From assembly GCA_903827085.1 (NCBI GenBank), contig CAIKHC010000396.1:1-10813 (forward strand): 10,813 nt of DNA, read 5' to 3'. Every line of letters begins with the position of its first letter. The first letter of the stretch is position 1. The notes under the pieces were generated by a model, which made no database searches, was not told the DNA's origin, and saw only the letters and a list, made by a program, of their open reading frames with translations. Positions 3,310 through 8,853 of this stretch are shown here, one piece after another. Both the position numbers and the translations under genes were made by a program. This DNA is from an uncultured Candidatus Nemicrothrix sp. GTDB lineage: Bacteria; Actinomycetota; Acidimicrobiia; Acidimicrobiales; Acidimicrobilacustridaceae.

Positions 3310-3673
3310 TCGTCTGGCGGGGAGTCTGTTCCTCGGGGCGACGGTCGCAGTAGCGACTGTCGCCTACGCGCCCGGAGTCTCTGACCGGTTGTTCGCTCAA
3401 GGTGTCAGTTGTCCGAGCCGCATGTGGCTCGGAGTCCTGTGTCCTTTCTGCGGGATGACTCACGCGGCAGTGGCCCTTCTTCGTGGCGACATCCTCGGCA
3501 GTTTGAGCCAGAACGCTTTCGCTTTGTTCTTTCTGTTGGGGCTGTTGGGTTGGCTGGTGACGCTGATTGGATGGTGGAGGCCCAGAATTCCATGGGCACT
3601 CTCGAGATCATTCGTTTCTCTCCTCATCGTCCTCGCATTTGTGGGCTACTCAGTGGGCCGGAACCTGGTCTGA
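3260..3673 (+). CDS. DUF2752 family membrane protein, overlapping the TM2 gene
   Basis: 137 aa from ATG 3260, the only in-frame ATG ahead of the conserved core. The family signature is clear: C51 followed by C61-P-F-C64-G-M-T67-H68, then LLRGDILGSLSQNAFALF, matching the DUF2752 pattern CPxCGxTRA...GD...A..N. The usual Arg after Thr is His here. Three hydrophobic segments are visible (about 20-37, 83-103 and 112-128), so it should be an integral membrane protein; the cysteine motif suggests metal binding or thiol chemistry, but no function is known. The start is uncertain. No good ribosome site precedes ATG 3260 or the alternative TTG 3218, and both lie inside the TM2 gene (50 or 92 nt overlap). 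Starting after the TM2 stop would require a CTG codon and would trim the first helix. I infer translational coupling to the TM2 gene. Confidence 0.75.
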   Translation: MPNSSRSTSRALATGSDRLAGSLFLGATVAVATVAYAPGVSDRLFAQGVSCPSRMWLGVLCPFCGMTHAAVALLRGDILGSLSQNAFALFFLLGLLGWLVTLIGWWRPRIPWALSRSFVSLLIVLAFVGYSVGRNLV

Positions 3674-3743
3674 TTTCGCCGTGGAACGGGAAAATGTCCC
3701 CGAGTTGCCGTTGGGGGCTCCGGGCGGCAAGACTTACGGCCCT

Positions 3744-3785
3744 GTGAGCACGACGGTCCTTACCTCGCTCGTAGTACTCCGCTAG
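3744..3785 (+). CDS. Putative ilvB leader peptide (attenuator), MSTTVLTSLVVLR
   Basis: A 13-codon frame, GTG start and TAG stop, in the gap before ilvB. It encodes MSTTVLTSLVVLR: three Val and three Leu in 13 residues, plus three Thr, and its late part has the run CTC GTA GTA CTC. GTA is an unusual Val codon for this GC-rich DNA and is expected to make stalling sensitive to charged tRNA-Val. The stop codon sits at the foot of a hairpin (3785-3814), and a terminator-like hairpin follows at 3820-3841. This order is the classic layout of a branched-chain amino acid attenuator, and ilvBNC attenuation by a leader peptide is established in Corynebacterium glutamicum. No ribosome site precedes the GTG. 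As I recall, the C. glutamicum leader also lacks one, so leaderless translation is plausible. The frame is open further upstream (TTG 3711, GTG 3681), so the start is not proven. Confidence 0.7.
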   Translation: MSTTVLTSLVVLR

Positions 3786-3814
3786 CACACGCCGGCCTCG
3801 TCCGTCGCGTGTGC
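3785..3814 (+). promoter_or_regulatory. Leader hairpin of the ilvB attenuator
   Basis: GCACACG (3785-3791) pairs perfectly with CGTGTGC (3808-3814) around a 16-nt loop. Its 5' foot contains the last base of the leader-peptide stop codon, so a ribosome finishing the leader would melt it and one stalled on the Val/Leu codons would reach its edge. The loop holds GGCCTC (3794-3799), a copy of the 5' arm of the downstream terminator, and CCGTCG (3802-3807), which is complementary to CGACGG in the leader codons (3751-3756). These give mutually exclusive pairings, as expected of an attenuator. Which pairing acts as antiterminator I cannot settle by eye. Confidence 0.55.
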
Positions 3815-3819
3815 GCCCC

Positions 3820-3850
3820 CGGCCTCCCACTCGGGAGGCCGTTTACGTTC
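3820..3850 (+). terminator. Terminator-like hairpin of the ilvB attenuator
   Basis: CGGCCTCCC (3820-3828) and GGGAGGCCG (3833-3841) form a perfect 9-bp GC-rich stem with loop ACTC, followed by TTTACGTT, a short and imperfect U-rich tail. It lies 64 nt before the ilvB start and directly after the Val/Leu leader frame. Read-through would be needed for ilvBNC expression from any promoter upstream of the leader. The weak U-tract lowers confidence that it works as a full terminator. It could also serve as the terminator of the DUF2752 transcript. Confidence 0.6.
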
Positions 3851-3905
3851 CGCCCGTTCGAACCGGCCCAATCCCGCTGATGTCAAGGCATCGGGGAGGA
3901 CAACC

Positions 3906-5636
3906 ATGAAAACCAACGGTGGTGCCGCACTCATCAAGGCTCTCGAACTCGAGGGTGTCGATGTGATCTTTGGTCTGCCCGGTGGAGCAATCCTTCCGGT
4001 GTACGACCCGATCATCGATTCGCCAATTCGCCACATTCTTGTTCGTCACGAACAAGGTGCAGGACACATGGCCGAGGGCTATGCGCATGCAACTGGCCGT
4101 CCTGGTGTTGCGATGGTGACTAGCGGCCCGGCCGCAACGAACATCATCACGCCACTCGCTGATGCCTACATGGACTCGGTTCCGATGGTGGTCATCACCG
4201 GCCAGGTCGGAACCGCGGGCATCGGAACTGACGCGTTCCAAGAAGTCGACACGGTTGGCATCACTCGTTCGGTTACGAAGCACAACGAACTCGTGACAAA
4301 CGCGGCGGACATCCCGCGCATCGTGCGCGAGGCATTCCACATCGCGACCACAGGTCGTCCCGGCCCCGTTCTTATCGACATTCCGAAAGACCTCGTGGAT
4401 CCCACGAACCCGAACTCGGCGCTCGATTGGTACTGGCCCGATTCCGTCGATCTTGCTGGGTACAACCCTCGCCTCGATGGCGATCCTGCGCTCATCAAAG
4501 ATGCCGCGCAACTGATCATCGCTGCAGAACGCCCCGTCATCTACTCGGGTGGTGGCATCCTCAAGGCGCGGGCCGCAGAGTCGCTGCTTGCCCTTGCGGA
4601 ACTACTCGACATCCCCGTCGTCACGACGCTCATGGCTCGCGGCACGATGCCCGATGATCATCCGTTGTGTCTCGGCATGCCGGGCATGCACGGCAACTAC
4701 ACCGCCGTCACCGCGATGCAGGAATCGGATCTACTCATTGCCCTTGGTTCGCGTTTCGACGACCGAGTCACCGGCAAGGTCGATGCATTCGCAAAGAACG
4801 CCAAGATCATTCACGTCGATATCGATCCTGCTGAACTTGGCAAGGTTCGCCGACCCGACGTCGGAATCACTGGCGATTGTCGTCTTGTCATCGATGAACT
4901 GATTACTGCGCTGAAGCAGATCGGTGCGCCAGAAGTTCAGCCCGATCGTTCAGCGTGGAAGTCCACGATCAGCGGATGGCAAGAGAAGTACCCGCTTACT
5001 TACGTTCAGTCCGAGCCGGGAGATTTGCTCAAGCCGCAGTACGTGCTTGAACAACTTCGTGACAACACCCCCGATGACTGCATTGTTGCATCGGGCGTCG
5101 GTCAGCATCAGATGTGGACTGCGCAGTACTGGAAGTTCAACCATCCCTACACCTGGATCAACTCGGGTGGCCTCGGAACGATGGGTTTTGCGGTTCCGGC
5201 AGCAATTGGCGCCAAGGTCGGGAGACCCGACCGCATGGTGTGGGCCGTCGACGGCGATGGCTGTTTCCAGATGACCGCGCAAGAACTTGTTACCGCTGCC
5301 GCCGAGCGCATTCCGGTGAAGATCGCCATTCTCAACAATGCGTATCTCGGAATGGTTCGTCAGTGGCAGGAAATGTTCTACGAGGAGCGTTATAGCGAGG
5401 TCTATCTCTCTCCTGATCTTCCGGACTACAAGATGTGGGCCGAATCCATGGGTTGTGTCGGCATGCGTGTCGAAGCTCCCGAGGATGTTCTTCCCGCAAT
5501 TCAGCGTGCGAATGAAGTTGACGACCGTCCGGTTGTCATTGACTTCCGCACCGATGCGCGCGAGAAGGTTTTCCCGATGGTGCCTTCGGGCAAGTCGAAC
5601 TCCGACATCGTCGTTGGTCCAGAGGATGAACGATGA
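3906..5636 (+). CDS. ilvB: Acetohydroxyacid (acetolactate) synthase, large catalytic subunit
   Basis: 576 aa, normal length. It catalyses the first common step of Val/Leu/Ile synthesis: two pyruvate to acetolactate, or pyruvate plus 2-oxobutyrate to acetohydroxybutyrate, using ThDP, Mg2+ and FAD in the cytoplasm. The start is supported by GGGGAGGA at 3893-3900. The ThDP Pyr domain begins with GLPGGAILPVYD and RHEQ, giving the catalytic Glu49, and continues through AFQEVD and GRPGPVLIDIPKDL. The central FAD-binding domain includes GGGILKA, TTLMARG and LGSRFDDRVTGK. The C-terminal PP domain has GVGQHQMWTAQ, SGGLGTMGFAVPAA, the G450-D451-G452 ... N477-N478 ThDP/Mg motif and LGMVRQWQEMFYEERYSE. 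One oddity: the usually invariant GPGATN loop reads GPAATN (Ala76). It overlaps ilvN by ATGA. The upstream leader peptide and hairpins indicate attenuation by branched-chain aminoacyl-tRNA. The sequence closely resembles mycobacterial IlvB1 from memory. Confidence 0.98.
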   Translation: MKTNGGAALIKALELEGVDVIFGLPGGAILPVYDPIIDSPIRHILVRHEQGAGHMAEGYAHATGRPGVAMVTSGPAATNIITPLADAYMDSVPMVVITGQVGTAGIGTDAFQEVDTVGITRSVTKHNELVTNAADIPRIVREAFHIATTGRPGPVLIDIPKDLVDPTNPNSALDWYWPDSVDLAGYNPRLDGDPALIKDAAQLIIAAERPVIYSGGGILKARAAESLLALAELLDIPVVTTLMARGTMPDDHPLCLGMPGMHGNYTAVTAMQESDLLIALGSRFDDRVTGKVDAFAKNAKIIHVDIDPAELGKVRRPDVGITGDCRLVIDELITALKQIGAPEVQPDRSAWKSTISGWQEKYPLTYVQSEPGDLLKPQYVLEQLRDNTPDDCIVASGVGQHQMWTAQYWKFNHPYTWINSGGLGTMGFAVPAAIGAKVGRPDRMVWAVDGDGCFQMTAQELVTAAAERIPVKIAILNNAYLGMVRQWQEMFYEERYSEVYLSPDLPDYKMWAESMGCVGMRVEAPEDVLPAIQRANEVDDRPVVIDFRTDAREKVFPMVPSGKSNSDIVVGPEDER

Positions 5637-6121
5637 GCCCGGCGATGCGTCATCACATTCTTTCCGTCCTTGTCGAAAACAAGCCGGGTGTTCTTGCTCG
5701 CGTATCGGGTTTGTTTGCCCGTCGCGGTTTCAACATCTTTTCGCTTGCCGTTGCACCAACCGACGACCCCACTCGTAGTCGCATCACGATCGTGGTCGAT
5801 GTTGAATCAGCACCGCTTGAGCAGATCACCAAGCAGCTCGACAAGCTCATCAATGTGTTGCAGATCGACGAACTTGCTCCCATCGATGCGGTCGAACGCG
5901 AACTCATGATCGTCACAGTCACGGTTTCGGCAGAGTCGAAGCCCGAACTGCTTTCCCTGACTGAGGAATACAGCGGCGCCGTTCTCGATGAGTCCGGAGA
6001 TCGCATCACTGTGTCGCTGGGCGGAACCCCCGAGGCGCTCGATGCCTTTACCTCCCGCATGGGGGCAGCAGTGGTGGCCTACCAGCGCACCGGCCGCATC
6101 GCCCTTCCCCGCATCAATTGA
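5633..6121 (+). CDS. ilvN: Acetohydroxyacid synthase, small regulatory subunit
   Basis: 162 aa, typical for the IlvH/IlvN type. It binds and activates the IlvB catalytic subunit and carries the site for feedback inhibition, usually by valine. The N-terminal ACT domain covers about residues 6-80, with HILSVLVENKPGVLARVSGL and the GFNIFSLAV strand. The C-terminal regulatory domain contains RELMIVTVTV, EYSGAVLDESGDRITVSLGG and ends in the usual RTGRIALPR. The start ATG overlaps the ilvB stop (ATGA) and is preceded by AGAGGA (5621-5626) at 6 nt, so the two subunits are coupled. The Asn/Gly contacts of the ACT valine pocket lie in the VENKPGVLARVSGLF segment and look intact, so valine sensitivity is expected (inference). 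Confidence 0.97.
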   Translation: MSPAMRHHILSVLVENKPGVLARVSGLFARRGFNIFSLAVAPTDDPTRSRITIVVDVESAPLEQITKQLDKLINVLQIDELAPIDAVERELMIVTVTVSAESKPELLSLTEEYSGAVLDESGDRITVSLGGTPEALDAFTSRMGAAVVAYQRTGRIALPRIN

Positions 6122-6145: not shown

Positions 6146-7263
<1,118 letters not shown>

Positions 7264-7475: not shown

Positions 7476-7481
7476 GAGGAG
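7476..7481 (+). promoter_or_regulatory. metY ribosome binding site that sets the start
   Basis: GAGGAG ends 5 nt before ATG 7487. The in-frame GTG at 7481 overlaps this site, so ATG 7487 is the start and the protein begins MSDNWGFDT. Confidence 0.7.
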
Positions 7482-7486
7482 TGACC

Positions 7487-8797
7487 ATGAGCGACAACTG
7501 GGGTTTCGATACCCGTCAGATCCACGCCGGCCAGGAGCCCGACCCGACCACCGGTGCGCGTGCTGTCCCGATCTATCAGACAACCTCGTATCAGTTCCGC
7601 GACACGACCCACGCCGCGAATCTGTTTGCACTTGCCGAGATTGGCAACATCTACACCCGCATCATGAACCCGACCCAGGGTGTCTTTGAAGCTCGTATCG
7701 CATCGCTTGAAGGTGCAACTGCAACTGCAGTTGGTCTTCCCGGTGCACTTGCCGTTGCATCAGGTCAGGCTGCCGAAGCGCTTGCCATTCAGAACCTCGC
7801 CGAAGCGGGAAGCCACATCGTTGCCTCAGCAGCGCTCTACGGCGGCACCTACAACCTTCTTCACTACACGCTTCCGAAGTTTGGTATCGATGCGACGTTC
7901 GTCGAAGATCCCGACAACCTCGACGAATGGCGCAATGCGATCCGTCCGAACACCAAGGCGTTCTACGGCGAGACCATCGGCAACCCGCGTAACGACGTGC
8001 TTGACATCGAGGGCATTTCGAAGGTCGCTCATGAGGCCGGGATTCCGCTCATTGTCGACAACACCGTTGCGTCACCATGGCTTATTCGTCCGTTCGAGTG
8101 GGGCGCAGACATCGTGGTGCACTCGGCGACCAAGTTCATTGGTGGCCATGGCACCTCAATCGGCGGCCTCGTCGTCGATGGCGGTTCGTTCGACTTCTCG
8201 GCCAACGACAAGTTCCCGATGTTCACCGAACCAGACCCCAGCTACCACGGCCTTCAGTACTGGCCAGCGCTTGGTGCCGGCTCGTACATCATTAAGGCCC
8301 GCGTGCAGTTGCTTCGCGATCTTGGCCAGGCCATCACGCCGTTCAACTCATTCCTGTTCCTTCAGGGTCTTGAGACACTCAGCCTTCGTATGGAGCGTCA
8401 TAACGAGAATGCCGCAAAGGTCGCCGCGTATCTTGCCGGGCACTCGCAGGTCGAAGAAGTGCAGCACGCCAGCCTGACCTCTTCGCCGTGGCATGAGCGC
8501 GCGAAGAAGTACACCGCCGGCAAGGGCTTCGGTTCTGTGCCCGCATTCATTATCAAGGGCGGCAAGGACGCCGGACAGAAGTTTGTCGAGGCGCTTGAAC
8601 TGCACAGTCACGTTGCGAATATCGGTGACGTGCGCAGCCTTGCCATCCAGCCGGCAACCACGACGCATTCACAGCTCACCGAAGCTGAGCAGATCACCGC
8701 TGGCGTGCAGCCGGGTCTCGTGCGTCTTTCGGTTGGCCTCGAGTCAATCGACGACATCATCGCCGACCTTGACAAGGGCTTCGCTGCTGCGAAGTGA
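7487..8797 (+). CDS. metY: O-acetylhomoserine sulfhydrylase (aminocarboxypropyltransferase)
   Basis: 436 aa, the usual length of MetY and longer than the ~380-400 of MetB/MetC-type relatives. It is a PLP enzyme that joins O-acetylhomoserine with sulfide to give homocysteine for methionine synthesis in the cytoplasm. MetY features include the N-terminal [20 protein letters not shown] and [11 protein letters not shown], the [13 protein letters not shown] segment, [17 protein letters not shown] (its stacking Tyr), [19 protein letters not shown], and the PLP lysine K216 in [12 protein letters not shown]. The long insertion after the PLP site ([14 protein letters not shown]) separates MetY from cystathionine synthases. 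The end is the family block [18 protein letters not shown]. It stands alone between its own promoter and a strong terminator. No metX is next to it, although the pair is often adjacent. O-acetylserine activity cannot be excluded from sequence alone. Confidence 0.96.
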
Positions 8798-8823
8798 GTC
8801 ATCGGTAGTCCCAAGTTGTAGAG

Positions 8824-8853
8824 AGAGGCCCGGTCATCGACCGGGCCTCTTTG
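8824..8853 (+). terminator. Intrinsic terminator after metY
   Basis: AGAGGCCCGGTC (8824-8835) and GACCGGGCCTCT (8839-8850) form a perfect 12-bp stem with loop ATC, followed by TTTGCG. It begins 27 nt after the metY stop. This is the clearest terminator in the window and separates metY from the SDR gene. Confidence 0.88.

Follow-up and report, generated by a model that had tools for sequence, protein, structure and literature searches.

Leader-peptide attenuators in front of ilvB have already been described in Corynebacterium, Streptomyces and Mycobacterium. In C. glutamicum, the ilvBNC operon (Morbach et al. 2000, as cited in PMC11857589) is preceded by a short Leu/Val leader with GUA as a conserved control codon; the model outlined in PMC11857589 comprises three hairpins, where the antiterminator and terminator bases are adjacent, the hairpins overlap by GCC and the third hairpin covers the leader. 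The Corynebacterium ilvB-II motif, as presented in PMC10272879, includes a BCAA-rich uORF spanning most of stem P1, two stems, a terminator before ilvB, and a P1 loop that pairs with this terminator. The account of M. tuberculosis ilvB1NC in PMC13236596 describes a uORF with LVVI control codons (GUA being drawn as regulatory) and mutually exclusive hairpins in a 166-nt leader; the antiterminator can form when the ribosome stalls at the control codons, but not when it has reached the stop codon. The Streptomyces ilvBHC and leuA genes are reported to have BCAA leader peptides (PMC8079986, PMC1262725), which are leaderless in S. lividans. No report of leader-peptide or leaderless ilv attenuation in Acidimicrobiia was found in the open-licence literature; the locus analysed here is ordinary in principle and new in place and detail, being clade-wide, having a distinctive geometry and belonging to a wider regulon.

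The window, i.e., the whole stretch of 10,813 nucleotides that was analysed, is contig C396 of a genome of 2.06 Mb in 448 contigs. The named records closest to it are those of Candidatus Microthrix, Microthrixaceae and Acidimicrobiales, which would assign it to an uncultured acidimicrobial actinobacterium. NCBIfam models identify ilvB (acetolactate synthase large subunit, 3906–5636), the gene presumed to be controlled, ilvN (acetolactate synthase small subunit, 5633–6121) and ilvC (ketol-acid reductoisomerase, 6229–7263); these genes and all the elements listed below are on the forward strand. The preceding ORF terminates at 3673, 5′ of a promoter-like element read from the sequence, which consists of a −35-like TTGCCG (3705–3710) and a −10-like AAGACT (3729–3734). 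They are followed by a leader peptide ORF (3744–3785, GTG at 3744 to TAG at 3783–3785, encoding MSTTVLTSLVVLR) with the control codons CTC GTA GTA CTC (Leu Val Val Leu, 3768–3779), a hairpin founded on the stop codon (3785–3814, hereafter hairpin A), a 9-bp terminator-like hairpin with the loop ACTC (3820–3841), a U-rich, interrupted tail, TTTACGTT (3842–3849), and the Shine–Dalgarno-like GGGGAGG of ilvB (3893–3899). The control codons are followed by CGC and TAG. The first-pass annotation had placed the frame, its codons and both hairpins correctly and had proposed a leader-peptide attenuator of ilvBNC resembling that of C. glutamicum. The results below support both the proposal and the resemblance: the operon is the same, and the locus is read here as a putative ribosome-mediated transcription attenuator of ilvBNC, with a probability of roughly 0.87. 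The response of the C. glutamicum (PMC11857589) and M. tuberculosis (PMC13236596) attenuators to these codons, as reported in those sources, provides a precedent; the interruption of the U-tract in the window and the S. coelicolor ilvB leader codon changes reported to be without effect (cited in PMC1262725) count against the attenuator reading.

The comparison included 111 ilvB loci, namely L001, the best 30 from a search with matches in 35 of 37 genomes, and a further 80 that were the best among the matches listed in another search. Six duplicates and L101, which ends at a contig end, were removed, giving 104 distinct upstream regions. The same layout, comprising a short BCAA-rich ORF, a stop-codon hairpin and a terminator-like hairpin 0–6 nt further on, was found in 97 of the 104; relatives thus keep both the short Val/Leu frame and the stems, on the presence of which the first-pass annotation had made its reading depend. 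The score of the leader caller rewards Val/Leu/Ile codons, a stable fold downstream and a −10-like box 4–12 nt upstream, so these features are partly built into the leader counts; GTA, codon identity, stop-to-hairpin distance and hairpin spacing are outside the score. Hairpin A was folded only as far as the start of the terminator, and overlap was checked separately.

Seven regions were removed between the 104 and the 97. The leader is missing in five: in L039 and L060, the upstream coding sequence extends nearly to ilvB, and L062, L080 and L082 contain no such leader frame. In L013, the leader is present with a changed stop codon, and in L078, it has an in-frame stop at codon 3; both cases could reflect assembly error or decay.

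Comparison by eye indicates that the sequence 5′ of the leader varies between relatives, while the leader and the hairpins are kept, so the leader belongs to ilvB. This observation also bears on the suggestion that the structure is merely the terminator of the upstream gene next to a spurious small ORF, with no regulation; the end of the upstream ORF at 3673 and the commonness of intrinsic terminators would agree with such an explanation, but that ORF is separated from the terminator by a promoter-like element, and four kinds of operon have leader codons fitting their pathway (see below), making this explanation highly improbable. R2, a covariance model trained on 65 of these regions with a manually specified structure, matched 98 of 120 genomes from the class Acidimicrobiia, some of which had supplied training sequences; in the genome of the window, R2 finds the ilvB attenuator at E 1.5e-18, a value that is not independent because the window's sequence (L002) is among the 65 used for training. 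Three records titled Bifidobacterium breve, Acidobacteria and Thermoanaerobacterales (L106, L042 and L037, respectively) carry acidimicrobial-type ilvB leaders, so these labels may be wrong.

The leader of the window reads GTG AGC ACG ACG GTC CTT ACC TCG CTC GTA GTA CTC CGC TAG. The 97 leaders start with ATG (55) or GTG (42) and end with TAG (75), TGA (20) or TAA (2); 93 are 10–20 residues long, including 35 of 10–12 residues, and the others have 23, 25, 39 and 39 residues, some starts being doubtful, e.g., those of both 39-residue leaders. Relatives contain whole-codon insertions with the frame kept, e.g., SLVVVLR and SLVLVLR versus SLVVLR; the frame survives such insertions in L033, L017, L034 and L014. 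GTA occurs in the last eight codons of all 97 leaders, and at codon −3 or −4 in 96. Of the Val codons among these last eight, 171 of 253 are GTA, versus 100 of 4644 in ilvB of the same loci, these sequences being related to one another. The last six positions (582 codons) include 239 Val, 134 Leu and 34 Ile codons; since Ile codons are few, the main signal would be Val, then Leu. In six further ilvB leaders found by the model search, the last six codons include 4 Ile, 11 Leu and 9 Val of 36, and five of these leaders contain GTA; L272 has GTC GTT without GTA. The codon composition thus points to GTA as the main part of the conserved signal, accompanied by Leu codons; of the signal suggested in the first-pass annotation, the Val/Leu part holds, and the possible contribution of Thr, which is not conserved, does not. 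Among the tRNAs read from 24 tRNA matches in the genome of the window, there was no Val tRNA with any anticodon, probably because the genome is incomplete.

A −10-like box ends 5–12 nt 5′ of the start codon in 95 of the 97 leaders and 6–9 nt in 87; as the caller favoured boxes 4–12 nt away, the informative part is the concentration at 6–9 nt. When the best of five spacings 15–19 nt 5′ of the −10-like box is taken, 78 of these 95 leaders also have a −35-like element with at least four of six matches to TTGCCA, a count with no control. Shine–Dalgarno-like 4-mers precede 6 of 97 leaders (13-nt window) versus 73 of 97 ilvB genes (15-nt window), and no ribosome-binding site is apparent 5′ of 3744 in the window, in agreement with the earlier remark that the leader lacks one and may be weakly or leaderlessly initiated. 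In the window, the −10-like box ends 9 nt from the GTG, so the transcript should start at the GTG or within a few nucleotides of it. Judging from the promoter spacing and the lack of Shine–Dalgarno-like motifs, the leader transcript is probably leaderless. Comparable starts are on record: ilvL, leuL and trpL1 of S. lividans are reported to be transcribed leaderless (PMC8079986), and the C. glutamicum transcript is stated to start one nucleotide from the leader ATG (PMC11857589).

Folding of 3744–3850 with RNAfold, a check suggested earlier, returned both hairpins, with a free energy of −46.6 kcal/mol (z −3.33); of 200 dinucleotide-shuffled sequences, one was as stable. The first paired base of hairpin A in the window is the last base of TAG; in all 97 leaders, pairing begins no earlier than base 1 of the stop codon and no later than the third base past that codon, and the gap between hairpin A and the terminator stem is 0–6 nt. 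The hairpin position differs from the ilvB-II motif, where the uORF is described as spanning most of P1 (PMC10272879), and the beginning of the first hairpin at the stop codon is likewise a difference from the C. glutamicum system as given in PMC11857589. In 94 of 97 leaders, the distance from the first base of the last GTA to the start of hairpin A is 9–14 nt. Each of the 97 parsed leaders has a terminator-like hairpin with 3–9 T within the next 12 nt, so that an intrinsic terminator is predicted between the leader and the structural genes.

Both hairpins covary, as the alignment suggested by the first-pass annotation demonstrated. The MAFFT alignment A1 covers 65 of 93 distinct regions, and its two-stem structure was imposed by hand from the hairpin calls made for each sequence; RNAalifold applied to the MAFFT alignment recovered the terminator alone. 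In the A1 stems, 92.6% of cells are paired (85.0% in shuffles, at most 56.8% with slid partners), the covariation score is 0.277 (0.144 and at most 0.071, respectively), and 13 of 17 stem pairs have changes on both sides (at most 10 with slid partners); there are 46 distinct 8-nt hairpin A arms among the 97 sequences. A search of 3744–3850 against Rfam matched no family, even at E 10, and the conserved features are codons, a reading frame and two simple hairpins. These features would be hard to reconcile with a ppGpp or other riboswitch acting on ilvB, an idea that owes something to the ppGpp riboswitches described for ilvB in some Firmicutes (PMC10272879) and that we regard as having very little chance of being right.

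A more serious alternative concerns the way in which the terminator is switched. The first-pass annotation had pointed out that GGCCTC in the loop of hairpin A (3794–3799) can pair with GAGGCC in the 3′ arm of the terminator (3835–3840), and CGACGG in the leader (3751–3756) with CCGTCG in the same loop (3802–3807). All four motifs are where it placed them, but neither pairing emerged as a general feature: the second was seen, by eye, in close relatives alone, and the first was examined as the basis of a classical attenuator, in which the loop and the terminator 3′ arm would form a mutually exclusive antiterminator. Such a pairing (CGGCCTC with GAGGCCG) is possible in the window, and the ilvB-II model as described in PMC10272879 shares this loop-terminator topology. 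Within the genus, the loop motif is GGCCTC or GGCTTC, the latter still pairing via G-U, and in the nearest family (23 unique pairs), the loop-arm duplexes are weakly stronger than expected (8 of 300 shuffles as good). Over the 97 sequences, the true partners beat between-species permutations (0 of 2000 as good), with an excess of 0.5 kcal/mol that may be due to relatedness alone. Against shuffled loops, only 56 of 97 exceed the shuffle mean (−9.51 versus −9.15 kcal/mol), so that, unlike in the described ilvB-II motif, this pairing is not clearly conserved here, and it was rejected as a class-wide antiterminator; where terminators have been rewritten to CCCCTCGC or GGTCCCC, hairpin A is kept and no obvious matching loop is visible by eye. 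A classical attenuator of this kind is a possible explanation, to which we give limited credence.

Other partners were considered. Pairing of the hairpin A 3′ arm with the tail gave a sum of 747 versus a shuffled-tail mean of 685 (sd 17; 0 of 200 as high), but 1960 of 5000 permutations of the matched pairs were as high; pairing with the GC interruption of the U-tract was rejected, as matched pairs were no better than permuted ones, and the matches are also poor in L092, L094 and L104, where hairpin A is rewritten. When the hairpin A 5′ arm is omitted, 81 of 97 local folds show at least two of the last eight bases of hairpin A in pairs located below the terminator, a count with no control. Capture of terminator 5′ arm bases by hairpin A was found in just 6 of 97, and the two hairpins do not overlap in 91 of 97, unlike the GCC overlap of the C. 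glutamicum model in PMC11857589; a third conserved hairpin, as in that model, was not found. In the folding calculations, terminator-free structures with a stalled ribosome were on average 12.8 kcal/mol less stable (5.3–19.3), and banning the terminator with the ribosome at the stop codon cost 11.5 kcal/mol (minimum 1.1); for ribosome-free RNA, the mean gap was 8.9 kcal/mol and the minimum 0.0, so some sequences can fold without the terminator. At least four bases of the terminator 3′ arm are paired in 95 of 97 terminator-free folds, with no single partner common to 16 examples. Pairing tests and folding over the 97 sequences thus revealed no conserved base-paired antiterminator excluding the terminator, though folding energies cannot rule out kinetic or steric exclusion; exclusion by pairing of the type described for M. 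tuberculosis (PMC13236596) is not evident here.

The regulatory logic proposed for the ilvB attenuator is the same as that described for ilvB1NC in PMC13236596. Transcription would begin at or very near the GTG, as the promoter spacing suggests, and a ribosome would load at the 5′ end without a binding site. With sufficient charged Val-tRNA, it would read CTC GTA GTA CTC through to TAG, where its front would shield the next 10 nt or so; hairpin A would be blocked, the terminator would form and RNA polymerase would stop. When Val-tRNA for the rare GTA, perhaps also Leu-tRNA, is short, the ribosome would stall at codon −4 or −3 with its front just reaching the stop codon, so that hairpin A could form and transcription could enter ilvB. 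The front of a ribosome lies about 15 nt beyond the first base of the P-site codon. A ribosome at the first GTA would thus reach 3783 and one at the second 3786, so that hairpin A would be almost unobstructed; at the stop codon, it would reach about 3795, covering the 5′ arm of hairpin A. The start of hairpin A 9–14 nt after the last GTA implies that this stalling geometry is kept in 94 of 97 leaders. The constant abutment of the hairpins suggests a steric, non-overlapping antiterminator: in the preferred version, hairpin A, a few nucleotides from the terminator stem, would hinder closure of the base of that stem in the RNA exit channel.

Alternatively, hairpin A may act as a pause hairpin that synchronises polymerase and ribosome, with the terminator switched by some other pairing. 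Pause hairpins are described as standard in attenuators (PMC1183508), and the location of hairpin A, 3′ of the control codons and directly adjoining the terminator on its 5′ side, would be compatible with this role; on the other hand, it is founded on the stop codon and not over the early codons, and the leaders of 10–12 residues, probably having no 5′ UTR, would offer almost no upstream strand for another helix. We therefore find this role for hairpin A rather doubtful.

Leaders of this design are also found in front of other operons. In the genome of the window, R2 gave ten matches at E up to 10, two of which, besides ilvB, are attenuator-like; matches in C80, C19 and C210 (E 7.4e-4 to 0.025) outscore the second of the two and look, by eye, like ordinary terminators. 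The first attenuator-like match (L231, contig C236, leader from 1414 to a stop at 1462–1464; E 1.7e-6) precedes leuB, as named by NCBIfam, and its leader MSTPSPHRSRSIVIIR ends in ATC GTG ATC ATT CGC TAG; the frame 3′ of this leuB is one we take to be ilvE-like. The second (L236, contig C122, leader start 3242; E 0.198) precedes an NCBIfam-assigned leuA and encodes MRSFSLELLLR, with CTT CTA CTT CGT TAG at its end, the Leu codons including CTA.

The sister survey covered 40 of the 136 R2 matches listed, mainly second or third matches of a genome; by tblastn likeness, they precede leuB (20), citramalate-synthase-like genes (8), ilvB (6), leuA (3) and no recognised gene (3). The citramalate-synthase-like genes have Ile-rich leaders (L242–L245, L249, L261, L265 and L267); their name rests on L242, one of the eight, for which TIGR00977 is the best model (292 bits for a fragment of 228 residues, short of the cut-off of 450 that applies at full length), and on the likeness of the others to L242. 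The three surveyed leuA genes are presumably of a different type, with a weak likeness to leuA of C122. The last six codons of the leaders comprise 44 Ile, 33 Val and 2 Leu of 120 for leuB, 27 Ile, 1 Leu and 1 Val of 48 for the cimA-like genes, and 12 Leu, 1 Val and no Ile of 18 for leuA; as the caller is blind to the difference between Val, Leu and Ile, this match of codon to product provides independent support. The Ile/Val codons before leuB would make sense if the LeuB-type enzyme also serves isoleucine synthesis via citramalate. Hairpin A of the sister sets is also located at the stop codon (offsets −3 to 0), with a gap of 1–7 nt in 38 of 39 parsed cases; the terminator of one leuA leader escaped detection, and longer loops caused three to be misread. 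The leuA leaders are followed, by eye, by hairpins and a U-rich run, in contrast to Streptomyces leuA, described as lacking a typical terminator (PMC8079986, PMC1262725).

Perhaps these are clade-wide attenuators without a base-paired antiterminator, in which hairpin A, abutting the terminator (0–7 nt), blocks it sterically in the RNA exit channel on a stall 3–4 codons earlier and is removed by a ribosome at the stop codon, and a single module may have been reused, mainly by codon change, for ilvBNC (GTA Val), leuB-ilvE (Ile/Val), cimA (Ile) and leuA (Leu). As a whole, this combined reading is tentative, and we would not expect all its parts to hold. Attenuation of these operons would mean that a class of bacteria, most of them uncultured, controls its BCAA synthesis by a simple RNA switch, and the leader codons would show which amino acid each operon senses; should two non-overlapping hairpins really make up the entire switch, termination would be prevented more simply than by the competing helices of textbooks.

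The survey was extended to 87 further loci (27 + 60), mostly from other classes of the phylum. Leaders were identified by the caller alone, with a criterion of at least four BCAA codons in the last eight and a run of at least three. This gave 28 leaders, 23 with GTA and 8 from the class itself; in the most distant loci, the caller found no leader. The peptide MRTRILVLGKRVG, one of these leaders, is identical in S. lividans (PMC8079986); in this Streptomyces leader, as given in PMC8079986 and PMC1262725, the BCAA codons lie farther from the stop codon than in the leaders described here. Elsewhere in the window, a long hairpin at 8805–8851 (GAGGCCCGGTC/GACCGGGCCTC) lies 3′ of the ORF 7481–8797 and is probably the terminator of that ORF; a weak cyano_het_sRNA match (E 0.13) coincides with it.
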